A stretch of DNA of 64,000 nt, taken from Thermotoga caldifontis AZM44c09 (GTDB lineage: Bacteria; Thermotogota; Thermotogae; Thermotogales; DSM-5069). The notes under the pieces were generated by a model, which was given only the letters and a program-made list of their open reading frames with translations, was not told the origin of the DNA and made no database searches. A program made the position numbers and the translations under genes. Positions 56,958-64,000 of this stretch are shown here, piece after piece. How positions within the stretch are numbered: the first letter of the stretch is position 1; the number at the start of each line of letters is the position of its first letter. Location: positions 1,426,001-1,490,000 of the forward strand of contig NZ_AP014509.1 in assembly GCF_000828655.1 (NCBI RefSeq), given 5' to 3'.

Positions 56958-57839
56958 TTGAAAAAATTGCTGTGGCTCTTTTCTCTCCTGTGTCTGAACC
57001 TTGTTCTGGCGAATCCCTTAGTGCTTCTGAACGAACCTGCAAAGGGTGTCTCTGTCACGTACCAGCCCGAACAGTTCAGGCTCACGGTGCTTTTGCCGGT
57101 GGTTCACCCCGTCGCACCGATCGACTGGTTTTTGCCCAAAGACAGCGCGAAAATTCTCAAAGGCCTGATCGGCGTGGAATCGAATTTCTTCGTCCACGCG
57201 GTTTCCGAAAAGGGTGCGATGGGTCTGACCCAGCTGATGCCAGCGACGGCGAAAGAGCTCGGCGTTCCGAACGCCTTCAACGTGTTCTCTTCGATCGATG
57301 CCGCGAACAGATATTTGAACCAGCTGTTTGCAAGATTCAGCAGCGTTCAGCTCGCGCTCGCCGCCTATCACGAAGGACCGGGCAGGGTTGAAAGGCAGGG
57401 ACCGAGCACGGAGGGGATCGGCTACGCTCAAAAAGTTCTGACACGTTCGCGGCAGCTTGAAGGTAAAACCATCTTTTTGAGAGACGTGACCTATTTTGAA
57501 CCGTACGTCGAACTGGGGAAAGACGTTTCAGGCGGGCTGAACGTTTATCTGTCACTGCTCGGTGCAGGCTACGTGGTGGGTGGGTTTGAGGTTTCGAACA
57601 GTATTTCGCACCAGGTACTGTTCTATCCAGCCATCACGCACGATTTCAGCTTGATCATCGGAGAGAAAGATCTCAAACTGGTTGGGGGATTTCTCTACAG
57701 GAAGGTTCCGAACTTCGGATTTCAGGTTCTTTTCGGCGAGAAGGATTTCGATGCGAGTGGGATCGTGCGCGTGTGGAAGTTCTATGTGACGGCGGGCTTT
57801 TCCAGCGGAAAGCTACGCGTGGGAATGATCTTCAAATGA
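56958..57839 (+). CDS. Lytic transglycosylase, SLT type
   Basis: A secreted 293-residue murein-cleaving protein. After a signal peptide (LKKLLWLFSLLCLNLVLANP) comes the SLT domain (about 55-145): ILKGLIGVESNFFVHAVSEK with catalytic Glu, GAMGLTQLMPATAKELGVPN, and QLALAAYHEGPGRVERQG. The last 130 residues (TYFEPYVELGKDVSGGLNVY, beta-rich) are not a domain I recognise and may bind envelope polymers. The TTG start follows GAGGTGTGAAGG. A bidirectional terminator follows the stop. Confidence 0.88.
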   Translation: MKKLLWLFSLLCLNLVLANPLVLLNEPAKGVSVTYQPEQFRLTVLLPVVHPVAPIDWFLPKDSAKILKGLIGVESNFFVHAVSEKGAMGLTQLMPATAKELGVPNAFNVFSSIDAANRYLNQLFARFSSVQLALAAYHEGPGRVERQGPSTEGIGYAQKVLTRSRQLEGKTIFLRDVTYFEPYVELGKDVSGGLNVYLSLLGAGYVVGGFEVSNSISHQVLFYPAITHDFSLIIGEKDLKLVGGFLYRKVPNFGFQVLFGEKDFDASGIVRVWKFYVTAGFSSGKLRVGMIFK

Positions 57840-57840
57840 A

Positions 57841-57864
57841 GAAGGCCCCCTCGCGGGGGCCTTC
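57841..57864. terminator. Bidirectional terminator between convergent operons
   Basis: A perfect 10-bp stem, GAAGGCCCCC (57841-57850) with GGGGGCCTTC (57855-57864), loop TCGC, between the transglycosylase and the convergent DUF2922 gene. Confidence 0.88.
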
Positions 57865-57866
57865 GT

Positions 57867-58076
57867 TCAGAGCAGGTTGAAGAACTCGTTCGTGGTCGTT
57901 TCGACTATCGCCGCTCTGTCTTTGACGTAACCAGACGGGATCGCTCCGAGACTTATCAACGCGTCCATCGCTTGAGACACCTGTTCGCTCGTGAGATCCA
58001 GCTTCGGGTTGGGTATGGTGATCCTGCGTCTTTTTCCATCGCTCTGGTTCACGAAATCGAGGAAGAGTCTCTTCAT
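57867..58076 (-). CDS. DUF2922 family small protein
   Basis: A 69-residue protein. Its pattern, MKRLFLDFVNQSDGKRRRIT, then IPNPKLDLTSEQVSQAMDAL and an end with Val-Glu-x-Thr-Thr-x-x-Phe, is that of the DUF2922 family, a small beta-rich protein of unknown function almost always found beside a DUF1659 gene, as here. The ATG is preceded by AAAAGGAGGTGTG. Start-to-stop spacing with the upstream gene is 15 bases, so they are one operon. Confidence 0.75.
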   Translation of the reverse strand: MKRLFLDFVNQSDGKRRRITIPNPKLDLTSEQVSQAMDALISLGAIPSGYVKDRAAIVETTTNEFFNLL

Positions 58077-58091
58077 ACATCACACCTCCTT

Positions 58092-58286
58092 TTAGACGAC
58101 CTGGACGGTGGTGATCAGATAGGCTTCCTGGACCGTGTAGTTCGTGAGCGAGTCGATGACGTTGGTGATCTGTTCAGCCTGAACCATCGTGACGGAATCT
58201 TCCACGGCGAAGCTGGCGCGTCTGAGGATGGGCCTGCCCGATTCGTTCACCTCGCCCGTGTTGTAAACGAGCCTGAGCTGTTTCAT
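58092..58286 (-). CDS. DUF1659 family small protein
   Basis: A 64-residue protein: MKQLRLVYNTGEVNESGRPI, LRRASFAVEDSVTMVQAEQI and TNVIDSLTNYTVQEAYLITT. This matches the DUF1659 pattern (short beta-hairpin with G-x-P, then a helix, then a strand). I take the ATG at 58286 behind GGGAGGTG; the frame is open to 58322. DUF1659 and DUF2922 pairs are known in Firmicutes beside YvrJ and sigma-factor genes, but their role is not known to me. The operon shares its promoter element with the sigma-like/holin-like operon at 52.8 kb. Confidence 0.75.
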   Translation of the reverse strand: MKQLRLVYNTGEVNESGRPILRRASFAVEDSVTMVQAEQITNVIDSLTNYTVQEAYLITTVQVV

Positions 58287-58308
58287 AACAGCACCTCCCT
58301 TCGGTTTT

Positions 58309-58334
58309 GGGAGCGCTCCCACTTAATAGATACG
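58309..58334 (-). promoter_or_regulatory. Shared promoter/hairpin element, copy 2
   Basis: Minus strand: CGTATCTATTAAGTGGGAGC then GCTCCC, with the perfect palindrome GGGAGCGCTCCC at 58309-58320. 15 of 17 bases of CCCACTTAATAGATACG agree with 52877-52893. The DUF1659 ribosome site and ATG follow after 23 bases, and the text around the ribosome sites (CCGAAGG-GGTG-CTGT-ATG) is also similar in both operons. Confidence 0.65.
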
Positions 58335-58380
58335 GAGGTGAGCTGTTACCAGAAGGAAACGGTTCTTTGAAGATCGCCCC

Positions 58381-58409
58381 TTGACACGCTCGAAGTCCCG
58401 TGGTATCTT
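58381..58409 (+). promoter_or_regulatory. Promoter of the histidine operon
   Basis: TTGACA (58381-58386), 17-base spacer, TATCTT (58404-58409), with TG one base upstream of the -10. Transcription would start near 58416, just before the leader-peptide ribosome site AGGTGAG (58420-58426). Confidence 0.8.
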
Positions 58410-58431
58410 ATAGCCAAACAGGTGAGTGCGC

Positions 58432-58524
58432 ATGGGCGTGGTTGAAGGGTTCTATAACAACGTTTTGAATCTCGTTCACCATCACGTGTTCGACCCGGTA
58501 GCTTCTCCACCGGGCGTTGCGTGA
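58432..58524 (+). CDS. hisL: Histidine operon leader peptide
   Basis: A 30-codon frame, MGVVEGFYNNVLNLVHHHVF then DPVASPPGVA, stop TGA 58522. It has AGGTGAG 5 bases before the ATG. Three consecutive His codons (58477-58485) lie before the histidine biosynthesis operon, inside the 5' arm of a hairpin that competes with an antiterminator. This is the arrangement of leader peptides controlling amino-acid operons by ribosome stalling. The peptide itself is unlikely to have another role. Confidence 0.85.
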   Translation: MGVVEGFYNNVLNLVHHHVFDPVASPPGVA

Positions 58525-58583
58525 TGGTGGAACGTTGAGAGGCTACCGGGTCACATCCGAAAGGGTGTGACCCTTTTTCTTTT
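58474..58583 (+). promoter_or_regulatory. Ribosome-mediated attenuator of the his operon
   Basis: Segments: A 58474-58486 (contains the His codons), B 58492-58502 (GACCCGGTAGC), C 58520-58533, D 58542-58552 (GCTACCGGGTC), E 58548-58558, F 58563-58573. A pairs with C; B pairs perfectly with D; E pairs with F as an 11-bp stem (one G-U) closed by GAAA and followed by TTTTTCTTTT, a strong terminator. A:C and B:D cross, so they exclude one another; D and E share GGGTC, so B:D and the terminator exclude one another. Stalling at the His codons masks A, frees B to pair with D and prevents termination. Confidence 0.85.
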
Positions 58584-58597
58584 AAGGAGGGACTTCG

Positions 58598-59443
58598 TTG
58601 AGAAAGCTCGACAGATTGATCCAGAACTTCATGCAGACGTGCGTGCGGAACGAATTCGAACTGTTTCTCAGTCCGGAGACGGAGCCGATGAAGGATCTGT
58701 CCCGGATCGGGAACGATGTCGTCTTCTTTCAGGCGAGGAACGGGCAGCTGTTCAAGCTCAGAAACGACTACACCGCTTCGATCGTTGAGTTCTTCAACAG
58801 GAACGTGCCTGATTCCCTCAGGGTCTGGTACTCGGGCTTCGTGTACCGTTACGATCCACTGGGACAGATTCAATCTGTCTACCAGCTCGGAATCGAGAAG
58901 ATCCCGTACGTTTCGTTCGAGGACAACCTCGTGGTTCTGAAGATGCTGGTCGAATCGATTCTCTCTTCTCTGACGGACGAGGTGCTCGTCGAGATAGGCG
59001 ATTCCAGGGTGATAGAAAGATGCGTTCGGCACGTGCCAAGGAGTTTCAGAAAAAAGCTCTTCGAACTCATAGACAGAAAGGACATCTCCGAGCTGGAGCT
59101 GTTCGCTTCCCTGAACGGTCTGGATCTGTCCGAGGTGCTGAAACTCGTCGAAGCGAGCTTCACGAAAAGGAGTGTGGACCAGCTGAAATACTTCGAACTC
59201 GAACCCTCGATCGGGGAAGAGATCGTGGAGGTGGTGGATTTCCTCTCGAACTTTCCCGGGGTGCGCGTCGAGGTTGACTTTTCCATAGCGAGAACCGTGG
59301 AAGAGTACGACGGGCTCACGTTCACGATCTTCGATCTGAGAGAACCCGCGTTGATCGCCGCCGGTGGCAGGTACAGCGTGAACGAGAAGGTGCTCGGTGT
59401 GGGCGGAACGATCTTTCTGGAGGAGAGAGCATGGTCAAGGTAG
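58598..59443 (+). CDS. hisZ: ATP phosphoribosyltransferase regulatory subunit HisZ
   Basis: A 281-residue paralogue of histidyl-tRNA synthetase lacking its anticodon domain; it activates the short HisG and mediates histidine feedback. Class-II fold traces: LFLSPETEPMKDLSRIG, VVFFQARNGQLFKLRNDYTA (motif 2 region), WYSGFVYRYDPLGQIQSVYQ and LGIEKIPY, and the end AAGGRYSVNEKVLGVGGTI. It is short for HisZ (usual 320-400), as in Thermotoga. The TTG start lies behind AAGGAGGGAC right after the attenuator. It overlaps hisG by 13 bases. Confidence 0.9.
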   Translation: MRKLDRLIQNFMQTCVRNEFELFLSPETEPMKDLSRIGNDVVFFQARNGQLFKLRNDYTASIVEFFNRNVPDSLRVWYSGFVYRYDPLGQIQSVYQLGIEKIPYVSFEDNLVVLKMLVESILSSLTDEVLVEIGDSRVIERCVRHVPRSFRKKLFELIDRKDISELELFASLNGLDLSEVLKLVEASFTKRSVDQLKYFELEPSIGEEIVEVVDFLSNFPGVRVEVDFSIARTVEEYDGLTFTIFDLREPALIAAGGRYSVNEKVLGVGGTIFLEERAWSR

Positions 59444-60066
59444 CGCTGGCGAAAGGGAGGCTGGAAGAGGAGGCGTTCCCCTTTCTCGAAAGGTGTGGCT
59501 TCCGGTTCGAAGAAAAGGGCGAGAGGTCGCTGATCGTCACGGACATCGAGGAAAGCTTGAAGATCTTCATCGTGAAACCTGCGGACGTTCCAACGTACGT
59601 GTCCAGCGGTGTGGTGGACGTGGGCATCTGCGGCACAGATTCGATCGTCGAATCGCAGCTCAAACTGATCCAGCCGATGAAACTCCCCTTCGGGAAGGCG
59701 AAGATGGTCGTGTCTGGCTTCGAAGGTTTCAAAATGAAGAACGGCAGCGTGACCGTGGCGACGAAGTTTCCCGTGAGCGCGAAGCTGTACTTCGATTCAA
59801 AAGGTGTGGATGTGAAGATCGTCAAGTTGAACGGTTCCGTTGAACTCGCACCGCTCGTGGGTCTGGCACCCCTGATAGTGGACATCGTTCAAACCGGAAG
59901 GACGCTGAGGGAGAACGGGCTCTCGATTCTGGACGAGATCTATCCCATCAGTGCTGTCGTGACGCTGAACGACGTTTCTTACAGGATCAAGCGTGGAGAG
60001 ATCCTGAGATTTTTAGAACGGCTCGAAAGGGGGTGCGGGCGTGAGGATCTTGATAGAACCCGCTGA
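59431..60066 (+). CDS. hisG: ATP phosphoribosyltransferase, short form
   Basis: A 211-residue first enzyme of histidine synthesis, joining ATP and PRPP. The short form lacks the C-terminal regulatory domain and needs HisZ, encoded just upstream. KVALAKGRLEEEAFPFLERC opens the protein; VVDVGICGTDSIVES, VATKFPVSAKLYFDSKGV and the PRPP loop DIVQTGRTLRENGL (about residue 152) are clear. It overlaps hisD by 26 bases. Confidence 0.96.
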   Translation: MVKVALAKGRLEEEAFPFLERCGFRFEEKGERSLIVTDIEESLKIFIVKPADVPTYVSSGVVDVGICGTDSIVESQLKLIQPMKLPFGKAKMVVSGFEGFKMKNGSVTVATKFPVSAKLYFDSKGVDVKIVKLNGSVELAPLVGLAPLIVDIVQTGRTLRENGLSILDEIYPISAVVTLNDVSYRIKRGEILRFLERLERGCGREDLDRTR

Positions 60067-61330
60067 ACGGCAGCTGCTCGAGATACTCGAAGCGAGAAGG
60101 CTGGACTTCGCGAACATCGAAAAGACGGTGAGAGAAATAGTGGAAGACGTGAAGCACAACGGACAGGCCGCGCTGGAAAAGTACATCGCGCTGTACGAGA
60201 AATGCGCCTTGAAGGATGAACAGATCCTGGTCAGTGAGGAAGAACTTGAGGCCGTAAAGGTCGAGGAAGAGTTCAGAGATCTGTGCGAAAAGCTCATCGA
60301 AAGACTCGAAAGGTTCCACTCGATGCAGCTGCAGGCTTCTCTGTGGAGTCTGACTTCTCACGGCTCTTTCGTGGGGTGTCTGATGAAGCCGATCGAGAGC
60401 GTCGCGATCTACGTGCCCGCCGGCAGGAAGGTGTACTTCACGACGCTACTCATGTGCGCGGTGCCGGCGAAGATAGCGGGGGTCGAAAGGATCGTCGTGG
60501 CATGCCCACCGAACGAGGATGGAAAGGTTCCAGATCGAATACTGTATCTGTGCAGAAGATTGAACATTCGAGAGATCTACAAGGTCGGTGGGGCACACGC
60601 GATCGCGGCCCTGGCCTACGGCACGGGCATCGTGAAGAGGGTCGACAAGATCGTCGGACCGGGGAACGCGTACGTATCGTGTGCGAAGAAGCTCGTGTTT
60701 GGAGATTGCGGGATCGATTCCGTGGCGGGACCGACAGAGCTTCTCATCGTCGCCGACTCCACCGCGAAGCCTGCGTTCGTGGCGGCGGACATGCTCGCAC
60801 AGGCGGAACACGACGAGATGGCCATGAGCGCGCTGATCACGGACGACGAGAACCTGATGGACGGAGTGCTCGAAGAACTCGCAAGCCAGCTCAACTCTCT
60901 GAGCGAGCCGAACAGGTCCGTGGCGAAGGTTTCGCTCGAGAAGAACGGTCTCGCGATACTGCTGAAAGATCTGAAAGACGCGATCGAGGTGGTGAACCTG
61001 CTGGCGCCGGAACATCTCGAACTGTTCGTGGAAGATCCCTTCTCCTGGCTGGGCAGGGTGAGGAACGCGGGTTCCGTCTTCGTTGGCAACAGCTCCGCCG
61101 AGGCGTTCGGTGATTACGGTATCGGACCGAACCACGTGCTCCCCACACTGCAGAACGCCAGGTTCGCTTCCGGTTTGAGCGTTCAGGACTTTTTGAAGAA
61201 GATCTTCGTGACCGTGGTGAGCGAAGAAGAGGTGCGAGAACAGGGCGAATTCTACGCGCGGCTGGCGAGGCTCGAAGGTTTCGAAGCCCACGCACGCTCG
61301 ATCGAAGCGAGAATGGGGGGAGCAAGGTGA
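60041..61330 (+). CDS. hisD: Histidinol dehydrogenase
   Basis: A 429-residue zinc enzyme for the last two oxidations, histidinol to histidine. Recognised by ESVAIYVPAGRKVYFTTLLM, KVGGAHAIAALAYGTGIVKR, KIVGPGNAYVSCAKKLVFG, IDSVAGPTELLIVADSTAKP, AQAEHDEMAMSALITDD (zinc His and Gln) and the late FGDYGIGPNHVLPT. GTG start within hisG after GGGGGTGC; it overlaps hisC by four bases. Confidence 0.97.
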   Translation: MRILIEPAERQLLEILEARRLDFANIEKTVREIVEDVKHNGQAALEKYIALYEKCALKDEQILVSEEELEAVKVEEEFRDLCEKLIERLERFHSMQLQASLWSLTSHGSFVGCLMKPIESVAIYVPAGRKVYFTTLLMCAVPAKIAGVERIVVACPPNEDGKVPDRILYLCRRLNIREIYKVGGAHAIAALAYGTGIVKRVDKIVGPGNAYVSCAKKLVFGDCGIDSVAGPTELLIVADSTAKPAFVAADMLAQAEHDEMAMSALITDDENLMDGVLEELASQLNSLSEPNRSVAKVSLEKNGLAILLKDLKDAIEVVNLLAPEHLELFVEDPFSWLGRVRNAGSVFVGNSSAEAFGDYGIGPNHVLPTLQNARFASGLSVQDFLKKIFVTVVSEEEVREQGEFYARLARLEGFEAHARSIEARMGGAR

Positions 61331-62361
61331 GTTTCAGTTCGGTCGTTGAAGAGATCAGAAAGAACGTAGAGGCGTACCGGTCTGAGCCGAGGACTCTCAC
61401 GTACCTTGCGCTGAACGAAAATCCCTATCCTTTTCCGGAAGAACTGGTGCGGGAGTGTTTCGAACGGATCGACGCGAGCAGGTTGCCGACCTACGTCGAT
61501 TCGCCGTCGGAAGAATTTTTGAACGAACTGGTCGACTACGTTTCGATCGGAGGATGGAAGGCGCAGAAAGAACAGATCAGCGTCGGAAACGGTGCCGATG
61601 AGATCATCTACGTGCTTTTGAGCATGTTCAAAGATCTTTCAATCTACGTCTTTCCACCGACCTACAGCTGTTACGAGATCTTCGCCAGCGCCGTTGGCGT
61701 GAAGCTGAACAGGGTGCCGCTCGCTGGTGAGAGGATCGATCTCGAGAGGTTGAAAGACCTCAACGAGGACTGCGTAGTTTTCCTGCCGAACCCGAACAAT
61801 CCGACGGGACATCTCTTCACGGACGAAGAGATCTTTCGGCTTTTGAACAGCGGTGCGCTCCTCGTTCTCGACGAGGCTTACTACGAATTCTCTGGCAGGA
61901 CCTACGCACCTTTGATAGAGGATTATTCCAACCTGATCGTCGTTCGAACCTTTTCCAAGGCCTTCGGTCTGGCGTCGCAGAGGATAGGCTATCTCATCGC
62001 GAACACCGCACTGATCGACGCCTACAACAGGATCCGACTACCTTACAACGTGAGCTATACAGGACAGCTCTTCGCGACGGTCGCGCTGAAGAACAGACGC
62101 ATCTTCGAAGAGAGAATAGAAAGGATCGTCGAAGAGAGAGAAAGGCTCAAGAGTGCACTGCGAAGGCTCGGTTTCAACGTGAGCGATTCGAAGGCGAACT
62201 TCGTCTTCGTCTATCTGGATCAGAAAGAGGCCGAGAGGATCCATCGGGCGTTGCTGGAACGCGGAATAACCGTGAGGAAAACAGGTTGGGGGCTTCGAAT
62301 CAGTGTGGGACAGACGCAGCAGAACGACCTTGTGATCGAAACGCTGGAGGGATTAATGTGA
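61327..62361 (+). CDS. hisC: Histidinol-phosphate aminotransferase
   Basis: A 344-residue PLP-dependent class I/II aminotransferase turning imidazole-acetol phosphate into histidinol phosphate. LALNENPYPFPEEL at the start, ISVGNGADEIIYVLLSMF, FLPNPNNPTGHLFTDEE, LLVLDEAYYEFSGRTY and the PLP-lysine segment VRTFSKAFGLASQRIGYLIA are all present. The start overlaps the hisD stop; GGGGGGAGCAAG precedes it. Confidence 0.95.
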   Translation: MSFSSVVEEIRKNVEAYRSEPRTLTYLALNENPYPFPEELVRECFERIDASRLPTYVDSPSEEFLNELVDYVSIGGWKAQKEQISVGNGADEIIYVLLSMFKDLSIYVFPPTYSCYEIFASAVGVKLNRVPLAGERIDLERLKDLNEDCVVFLPNPNNPTGHLFTDEEIFRLLNSGALLVLDEAYYEFSGRTYAPLIEDYSNLIVVRTFSKAFGLASQRIGYLIANTALIDAYNRIRLPYNVSYTGQLFATVALKNRRIFEERIERIVEERERLKSALRRLGFNVSDSKANFVFVYLDQKEAERIHRALLERGITVRKTGWGLRISVGQTQQNDLVIETLEGLM

Positions 62362-62954
62362 GGCTGGAAAAGAAGGAAAATTCCTGTTCTATCGGGCGTG
62401 AAACTCAAGAGACCGCCATCGAGCTAAAGCTCGTCGAGGATGGAAAAGGAACTTTCTCTGGCTCGAGCAAGATCGGATTTTTGGACCACATGCTGAAGAC
62501 CTTCTGCAAATTCTCGACGCTGTCTTTGAACGTGGAACGTTTCGAGGCGGATCTGCACGTGGACATGCACCACGCGGTTGAGGATCTTGCGATCGTGCTG
62601 GGCATCGCTTTCAGAGAGCTCTTCGATTATTCAAAGATCGCGCGTTTCGGTCACGCGATCGTCCCGATGGACGAAGCTCTCACTCTGTGTTCCATCGATT
62701 TTTCAGGAAGGGGTTTTCTGAACTTTCAGGTGTTCTTCGAAACGGAAAGGATCGGAGAGTTCCCCACCGAGCTCATCGAAGAGTTCTTCAGAGCCTTCGC
62801 GATGAACGCGAGGGTCACGCTCCACATCGTGAAAATGTTCGGGAAAAACTCGCACCACGTGGCAGAGTCCATCTTCAAAGCGTTCGGCATGAGTGTCAAA
62901 GAAGCGATCAGGAAAGTTGAATCCGTTCAGAGCACGAAGAACGTCATAGATTGA
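62358..62954 (+). CDS. hisB: Imidazoleglycerol-phosphate dehydratase
   Basis: A 198-residue manganese enzyme, single-function HisB without the phosphatase domain. GFLDHMLKTFCKFSTLSL, DLHVDMHHAVEDLAIVLG and the second half KNSHHVAESIFKAFGMSVKE carry the metal His clusters. One usual motif, HxxED, is here HHAVED; the first-half N-terminal ET-x-I is ETQETAIEL. I place the start at GTG 62358, which has GGAGGG 8 bases upstream and overlaps the hisC stop; the frame is open from 62286. Histidinol phosphatase must be elsewhere. Confidence 0.95.
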   Translation: MRLEKKENSCSIGRETQETAIELKLVEDGKGTFSGSSKIGFLDHMLKTFCKFSTLSLNVERFEADLHVDMHHAVEDLAIVLGIAFRELFDYSKIARFGHAIVPMDEALTLCSIDFSGRGFLNFQVFFETERIGEFPTELIEEFFRAFAMNARVTLHIVKMFGKNSHHVAESIFKAFGMSVKEAIRKVESVQSTKNVID

Positions 62955-62974
62955 CCGTGAAGGAAGGTGGGGCG

Positions 62975-63700
62975 ATGCTCGTCATTCCCGCGATCGATCT
63001 TTACGAAGGGCGCGTCGTGAGGTTCGAGAAGGGCAGGAAAGAGAACTGCCGTTTTTACGAGCTCGATCCGATTGAGCTTCTGGAAACCTTCGTGTGGGAG
63101 GGTTTCAAACTCGTGCACGTCGTCGATCTTTCTGCGGCGATCGATGGTTCGAGGTCGAACGAAGCCGTTTTGAAAAAGATCGCGAGCAAGGATCTGGCGC
63201 GCTTCGTTCAGCTGGGAGGTGGGATAAGGGACGTTGAGCGTGCGCTGAAACTCAAAGAGATGGGTTTTGAAAGACAGATCCTCAGTTCCGCCCTGGTCGA
63301 AAACCCATCGCTGGTTCGTGAACTGCTCGCGCGCGGTGTGGACGTGATCTTCTCTCTCGACACGTCGCAGGGTAAGGTACGCGTCAAAGGGTGGAACGGT
63401 CAGAGCGATGTGGACGCGATCGAGCTGCTCGAAAGGCTGAAAAATTTCGGTTTGAGGCGGGTGGTACACACCGACGTGGACGCAGACGGCACCATGAAGG
63501 GTAGAGATCTGCGGTTCACACGGAAGCTCGCGATCGAAACACAGCTCGAGTTCATCGTGGCTGGAGGTGCAGGTTCAGTGGAAGATCTGAAGCGTGTGAG
63601 AGAGCTTTCTTTCGAGGTTCCAAACGTGGTCGGACTGATCGTTGGAAGGGCGTTTTACGAGGGAAAAATCTCTCTGGAGGTGATGAGAAGCTATGTTTAA
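62975..63700 (+). CDS. hisA: Phosphoribosylformimino-AICAR-phosphate isomerase HisA
   Basis: A 241-residue TIM-barrel enzyme opening the ribose of Pro[23 protein letters not shown] opens the barrel; [57 protein letters not shown] with the catalytic Asp, and [16 protein letters not shown] follow. The ATG at 62975 has GGTGGGG 4 bases upstream, better than the earlier frame start at 62951. There are only 20 bases between hisB and this start, with no hisH in between. Confidence 0.94.
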
Positions 63701-64000
63701 GAGAATCGTGGCGTGTCTGGACGTGAAGGACGGTAAGGTCGTTAAAGGAAGACAGTTCGTGGACTTCGTCTATGCGGGTGATCCATTACAGCTCGCCGAG
63801 AAGTACTGCGAAGCTGGCGTGGACGAACTGGTGTTTCTGGACATCACCGCATCTCTCGAATCGAGAAGAACGATGATCGAGCTGGCGAAGAAGGTCGCTG
63901 AAAGGGTGAAGGTACCCTTCATTGTCGGTGGGGGAATCAGGGACGTTGAGACCGCAGCGGAGTTGATCTATGCGGGTGTGGACAAAGTGAGCGTCAACAC
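63693..64000 (+). CDS. hisF: Imidazole glycerol phosphate synthase cyclase subunit HisF (partial)
   Basis: The first 102 residues of the HisF TIM barrel, cut by the window end: [20 protein letters not shown] with catalytic Asp11, [20 protein letters not shown] and [20 protein letters not shown]. It needs the HisH glutaminase for ammonia, whose gene is not seen here. GGAGGTGAT lies within the end of hisA, and the ATG at 63693 overlaps the hisA stop by 8 bases. Confidence 0.96.

Follow-up and report, generated by a model that had tools for sequence, protein, structure and literature searches.

A probable ribosome-mediated transcription attenuator of the histidine operon in Thermotoga caldifontis and related leaders in the Thermotogota

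The his operon and its flanking genes

The stretch of DNA analysed here (the window) comprises 64,000 nucleotides of the Thermotoga caldifontis AZM44c09 genome (contig NZ_AP014509.1, positions 1,426,001 to 1,490,000 of the forward strand) and contains a histidine biosynthetic operon with the gene order hisZ-hisG-hisD-hisC-hisB-hisA-hisF-hisIE, preceded by a leader whose short open reading frame is rich in codons for the very amino acid that the operon makes (Table 1). The last of these genes, hisIE, lies just beyond the window, after hisF, and appears to close the operon. Upstream of the leader, on the minus strand and divergent from it, lie small DUF1659 and DUF2922 genes (57867-58322).

The operon lacks hisH: hisB is followed directly by hisA (62954-62975), and the best score of the hisH model anywhere in the genome is 38 bits, under a cut-off of 105. 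Matches above the cut-off are present in all four congeners, and in the nearest relative (G059) hisH lies between hisB and hisA. With hisH missing, HisF would need free ammonia or another glutaminase. Comparison with G059 shows HisG proteins that are 91% identical, hisB genes that are about 75% identical as DNA, and hisA genes that yield no DNA alignment (62331-63700), a pattern that may reflect acquisition of the rear part of the operon by transfer in place of the original genes, along with the loss of hisH.

Table 1. Elements of the his leader and genes of the operon, in window coordinates
Feature	Position	Strand	Remarks
Sigma-70-type promoter	58381-58409	+	TTGACA 58381-58386, 17 nt, TATCTT 58404-58409; TG precedes the -10 (extended)
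Leader-peptide ribosome-binding site	58420-58426	+	AGGTGAG; from sequence
Leader peptide ORF, 30 codons	58432-58524	+	MGVVEGFYNNVLNLVHHHVFDPVASPPGVA; ATG 58432, TGA 58522-58524
Control codons (His-His-His)	58477-58485	+	CAC CAT CAC; from sequence
Segment A, partner of C	58475-58488	+	Includes the His codons; shuffle p = 0.004
Segment B, antiterminator 5' arm, partner of D	58492-58507	+	16 pairs, 6 of 16 compensatory; shuffle p = 0.002
Small hairpin B:B'	58494-58514	+	58494-58499 with 58509-58514, CCCGGT/ACCGGG; inside A:C, terminated state
Segment C, anti-antiterminator half, partner of A	58518-58531	+	Contains the leader stop codon, 58522-58524
Segment D, antiterminator 3' arm	58537-58552	+	Final 5 nt form the base of the terminator stem
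Intrinsic terminator	58548-58583	+	Stem 58548-58558 with 58563-58573, loop GAAA, T-rich tail 58574-58583
hisZ ribosome-binding site	58584-58591	+	AAGGAGGG; from sequence
hisZ, ATP phosphoribosyltransferase regulatory subunit	58598-59443	+	TTG start; best model TIGR00443, 5.9e-27, under its cut-off
hisG, ATP phosphoribosyltransferase	59431-60066	+	TIGR00070, 186 bits, cut-off 75.75
hisD, histidinol dehydrogenase	60041-61330	+	PF00815
hisC, aminotransferase	61327-62361	+	PF00155; operon position
hisB, imidazoleglycerol-phosphate dehydratase	62331-62954	+	PF00475
hisA	62975-63700	+	PF00977
hisF	63693-64000, leaves the window	+	Translations from L060; sequence and position

Elements of the leader

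An initial annotation, made from the sequence alone, had described the region before hisZ as a complete histidine attenuator with promoter, ribosome site, leader peptide, alternative helices and terminator, and each of these parts was found where it had been placed, between 58381 and 58598. The promoter scores 10 of 12 matches and is the sole promoter-like site in 57500-59500, where shuffled sequences give 0.6. Among the closest relatives, the AGGTGA of the leader ribosome site is kept.

The intrinsic terminator sits between the leader ORF and the first structural gene, hisZ, and has the stem of 11 pairs, the GAAA loop and the T run that had been annotated, one of the pairs being G-U and TTTTTCTTTT following directly after the stem. 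An arrangement of this kind could in principle act on translation, with the hisZ ribosome site masked by the terminator as a whole or by its 3' arm, and CCCTTTTT (from 58571) could pair weakly with that site. Matches between polypyrimidine and Shine-Dalgarno sequences are common, however, and a strong stem that runs straight into TTTTTCTTTT has the usual form of an intrinsic terminator and recurs in all leader-bearing relatives, so that control at the level of hisZ translation is extremely unlikely.

Two long helices can be drawn in the leader. Segment A, which includes the His codons as originally proposed, pairs with segment C over 14 pairs, three of them G-U, while segment B pairs with segment D. 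For B:D the 11 perfect pairs counted in the initial annotation stand, but the helix is longer than described, continuing through one G-U to 16 pairs. Because the segments follow one another in the order A, B, C, D, the two helices cross, and because the linking loops (3 nt from A to B, 5 nt from C to D) are too short for helices of 14 to 16 pairs, full A:C and full B:D cannot exist together, a mutual exclusion that is drawn from the geometry. Inside A:C, B can also form the small hairpin B:B', whose 3' half repeats the ACCGGG of D. The attenuator observation is thus confirmed and had, if anything, been understated: the hairpin B:B', the position of the stop codon within C and the crossing of A:C and B:D all go beyond what had been described.

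A further possibility is that a T-box or another direct RNA sensor runs the operon and that the short ORF is incidental, since some Firmicutes his operons are under the control of histidine T-boxes (PMC9413887). Neither the window nor any of 14 related loci gave a hit to an Rfam cis-regulatory family at the gathering score, the T-box family RF00230 gave no match in either set, and an incidental ORF would leave in-frame runs of specific amino acids unexplained; such a sensor has next to negligible probability. The Rfam His_leader family RF00514 was likewise unmatched, both at its gathering score over the window and at E values up to 10 over 58300-58700. The permissive matches of Rfam models in the leader (E up to 10) were discarded as chance, none of them being meaningful.

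Conservation of the His codons and of both helices

Using HisG as a query against 103 Thermotogota genomes, 34 genomes with HisG were obtained; HisZ as a query on the genome contigs returned no related loci. A His leader is present in 26 of the 34, distributed over six family-level groups (f1, f2, f3, f5, f7 and f10), which bears out the annotated His-His-His run within a 30-codon ORF and the conservation expected of it. In 25 of these genomes an ORF with three or four in-frame His codons lies upstream of hisZ or hisG and is followed by a terminator, present in all 25 leaders examined; one reads HCHH and one HFHH. The 26th leader (G093) is at the end of another contig and was located by covariance model. 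Eight genomes have hisG but no such leader (G057, G038, G001, G054, G055, G100, G101 and G102). In one genome (G090; L036, oriented 879-2120) a TnpB-like IS605 OrfB gene separates the his attenuator from hisZ; read-through would transcribe the transposon gene too.

The His codons of the relatives vary at the third position (CAC or CAT) while their frame is preserved, and across families the sequence diverges widely outside these codons, yet both helices are retained. The partners of A:C are CACCATCACGTG:CACGTGATGGTG in f1, CCACCATCAAAA:TTTTGATGGTGG in f2 and CATACATGGCGTG:CATGCCATGTATG in f10, and those of B:D are GACCCGGTAGCTTCTC:GAGAGGCTACCGGGTC in f1 and CGTGACCG:CGGTCACG in f10. Covariation is seen between f1 and f3, where 6 of the 16 B:D pairs are changed on both sides with pairing retained; these counts come from a manual register, the automatic MAFFT alignment of f1 and f3 misplacing segment C in f3. 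In the f10 leaders (e.g., L055:2030-2157), there is an extra conserved segment, CATACAAGGC, which is complementary to C (GCCATGTATG) and could pair with it within B:D, suggesting that the read-through form of this family may have an additional helix.

Against dinucleotide shuffles of the window sequence, A:C gave p=0.004, and for B:D the value was 0.002, the floor of a single test with 500 shuffles; the windows compared were chosen after inspection. Of the six family representatives, five have both helices stronger than in shuffled sequences, and Fisher combination over the six families gives p=2.2e-7 for A:C and p=2.1e-8 for B:D, again for windows chosen after inspection. The exception is f5 (G002), in which the His leader and terminator are present and neither A:C nor B:D is significant against shuffles.

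The same alignments bear on nascent-peptide arrest of the TnaC or Erm type, in which the ribosome would sense free histidine or another ligand rather than stall for want of charged tRNA. Within a family, the residues that follow the His run are kept (HHHTWRGR.NTCHVC in f10), as such a mechanism would have it, but they are the residues whose codons make A, B and C, and the codons of the B-to-C loop are free to vary in f10 (VNT, CSS, GNS). Moreover, the peptide N-terminal to the His run is wholly different between genera. Arrest by the peptide itself is therefore very improbable indeed.

Predicted folding and a model for the switch

Folding predictions were made for the free RNA and for RNA carrying a ribosome, modelled for the first His codon by masking -18 to +12 around that codon. 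For the free window RNA the terminator is predicted with a probability of 1.00 at 37 C, falling to 0.96 at 75 C. Masking the first His codon raises the antiterminator to 0.62 at 37 C and 0.85 at 75 C, as anticipated from the proposal that a stalled ribosome would favour B:D, while masking B, as by a ribosome lying over it, leaves the terminator at 1.00 and 0.99, respectively. The predicted switch is thus retained at 75 C. In RNA ending just before the 3' arm of the terminator, a ribosome placed on His codon 1 or 2 leaves B:D practically fully formed, whereas one placed over B all but abolishes it (0.04 at 60 C, 0.08 at 75 C). At equilibrium with the whole terminator made, the antiterminator does not win in G074, G076, G005 and most of f10.

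The spacing of the elements is consistent with ribosome stalling. In f1, f2 and f10, B starts 15 nt past the first His codon, and in f3 (Thermotoga) it starts 15 nt past the second of four. The distance from the A site of the ribosome to its leading edge is close to 15 nt, so the start of B fits the leading edge of a ribosome stalled at these codons.

We infer the stalling itself, its timing and how the operon answers to histidine as follows. RNA polymerase would start near 58416, and a ribosome behind it would translate the 30-codon leader. When His-tRNA is scarce, the ribosome would stall at the His codons and cover A, its leading edge ending at about the start of B; B, left free, would pair with the emerging D and take the base of the terminator stem, allowing the polymerase to continue into hisZ-hisG and beyond. 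When His-tRNA is plentiful, the ribosome would proceed over B, and when no ribosome is present A:C would form with B kept in the B:B' hairpin. In either case, with B occupied, D would be free for the terminator and transcription would end at about 58574-58583.

Besides the relatives whose equilibrium folds do not favour the antiterminator, and G002 with no significant A:C or B:D, two features of the predictions count against this model and set requirements on it. While the 3' arm of the terminator is still missing, B:D has the greater stability of the two helices even with no ribosome on the RNA, so the anti-antiterminator A:C must be a kinetic trap. In addition, a ribosome at the stop codon, in a simple masking model at 75 C, favours B:D (0.91); as the stop codon lies inside C, a ribosome there would open A:C, and quick release must be assumed.

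Leaders for other amino acids in the phylum

Covariance-model matches in Thermotogota led to further leaders, in which reading revealed the layout of the his leader combined with other codon runs, the cases below being picked by reading. Upstream of argG, five genomes of the window's family carry an Arg-Arg(-Arg) leader; the peptides of these leaders (L129, L132, L128, L089 and L131) include RRRAGCRR, RRTKGRW, RRRTRCRW and VRRTRCRW, with terminators. Trp-Trp-Trp leaders precede trpE in G057 (L121) and a TrpB-like gene (trpB2) in G057 and G088 (L087 and L101), and all three have A:C and/or B:D helices in the same layout; before trpE of G057, A:C is GTGGCTTTGGGGGA:TCCCCTAAAGCCAC and B:D is GGGATGCCCTCCTT:AAGGAGGGCATCCC, 14 pairs each and crossing alike. 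Met-Met-Met leaders lie before a MetQ/NlpA lipoprotein gene (metQ) in f9 (L085, L086 and L095-L097) and Lys-Lys..Lys leaders before dapF in f8 (L076 and L104), both kinds with terminators and antiterminators, and His-His or basic runs precede amino-acid and peptide transporter genes. No leader-peptide attenuator was found upstream of ilvB, nor upstream of trpE and argG in Thermotoga itself; the window's own genome is without argG, trpE or a full ilvB.

Other model matches and conserved leaders were seen alongside these. Two weak matches in the window's own genome, before a gene that could not be identified and a glycerol-kinase-like gene, were rejected: a persuasive leader peptide is missing from both, and they resemble ordinary terminators. 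Leaders of citrate synthase genes (L080, L082, L112 and L114) have a conserved ORF with NNQPEPK or NNEPEQK followed by a terminator and perhaps sense Glu or Gln. Three Thermotoga loci (L073, L074 and L075) share a conserved leader ORF, ..MIMCTT[IS]KSRPL.GPGVF., with a terminator; over the stretch read, the gene that follows had no Pfam or NCBIfam model.

In five pathways the repeated codon fits the downstream gene; for cases picked by hand, this is the strongest argument for the codons acting as a signal. It bears directly on whether leader peptide and terminator are real while the terminator sets only a constant polarity, with no regulation by histidine. Such a state finds some support in G002, which keeps its His leader and terminator without a clear A:C or B:D. 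That the terminator acts in this passive way is nevertheless very unlikely, since the two alternative helices have been preserved through compensatory changes and the codon matches the pathway for His, Arg, Trp, Met and Lys alike.

Since Arg, Trp, Met and Lys genes are likewise preceded by this layout, each with codons to match, ribosome-mediated attenuation is the best reading, and the element in the window very probably controls the his operon by ribosome-mediated attenuation of transcription; the interpretation offered in the initial annotation is supported. The broader proposal, that Thermotogota possess a phylum-wide set of such attenuators serving amino-acid uptake as well as His, Trp, Arg, Met and Lys genes, functioning at growth temperatures that reach about 80 C, sharing one layout (control codons within A, helices A:C and B:D that cross, D overlapping the terminator) and forming a structural type unlike the enterobacterial one and absent from Rfam, we consider somewhat favoured by the evidence. 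Attenuation of a single geometry that serves several amino acids throughout a phylum of thermophiles would suggest that ribosomes track the polymerase closely enough to control transcription at 70-80 C, and transcription-translation coupling in Thermotogota would become directly testable. Such a set would supply a missing regulator of amino-acid synthesis for the group that includes Thermotoga maritima, from which many his enzymes of known structure come, as well as a new RNA family for databases.

Relation to known attenuators

Leader-peptide attenuation is best known in Proteobacteria, with some cases in Actinobacteria and Firmicutes. Leader-peptide attenuation of amino-acid operons is reported for Actinobacteria (PMC1262725); these attenuators are likewise ribosome-mediated, serve amino-acid operons and lie outside Proteobacteria, in another phylum. 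Candidate his attenuators with three to five His codons occur in Firmicutes, in the Bacillus cereus group, Peptostreptococcaceae and Erysipelotrichales (PMC9413887), and His-rich leader peptides have been described for hisZ/hisS* leaders in bacilli (PMC2965389). Like the Thermotoga caldifontis leader, these have a His-rich peptide before terminator and antiterminator hairpins, and they too belong to another phylum; the main texts of both papers make no mention of Thermotoga or Thermotogales. The main text of a T. maritima transcription map (PMC3636130) mentions neither attenuation nor histidine, and main-text passages of a structured-RNA survey that includes a Thermotogae genome (PMC8632094) contain no such element. 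The initial annotation knew of no description in Thermotogae, and our literature search found none in Thermotogota and nothing contradicting it; the broad attenuator survey of Lopatovskaya et al. (2010) lay outside that search and may contain some.

The logic of the Thermotoga caldifontis leader is that of the E. coli and Salmonella his attenuator (RF00514), which likewise has a peptide with His codons and mutually exclusive terminator and antiterminator before a his operon. The two differ in their parts. Enterobacterial his leader peptides have seven His, whereas the Thermotoga caldifontis peptide has three, and the enterobacterial helix set (A:B, C:D and E:F against B:C and D:E) stands against crossing helices A:C and B:D in a leader without sequence or structure match to RF00514. 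The operons also open differently, with hisZ-hisG in Thermotoga caldifontis and with hisG alone in enterobacteria. In the E. coli trp attenuator (1:2, 2:3, 3:4), as here, the position of the ribosome on the control codons picks antiterminator or terminator; there the 3' arm of the first hairpin makes the antiterminator, whereas in Thermotoga caldifontis it is made by the 5'-lying B, and an additional segment, C, lies between B and D. Judged by these comparisons, the attenuator appears to work like the enterobacterial his and trp kind, but with a different arrangement of helices and with no matching Rfam family.
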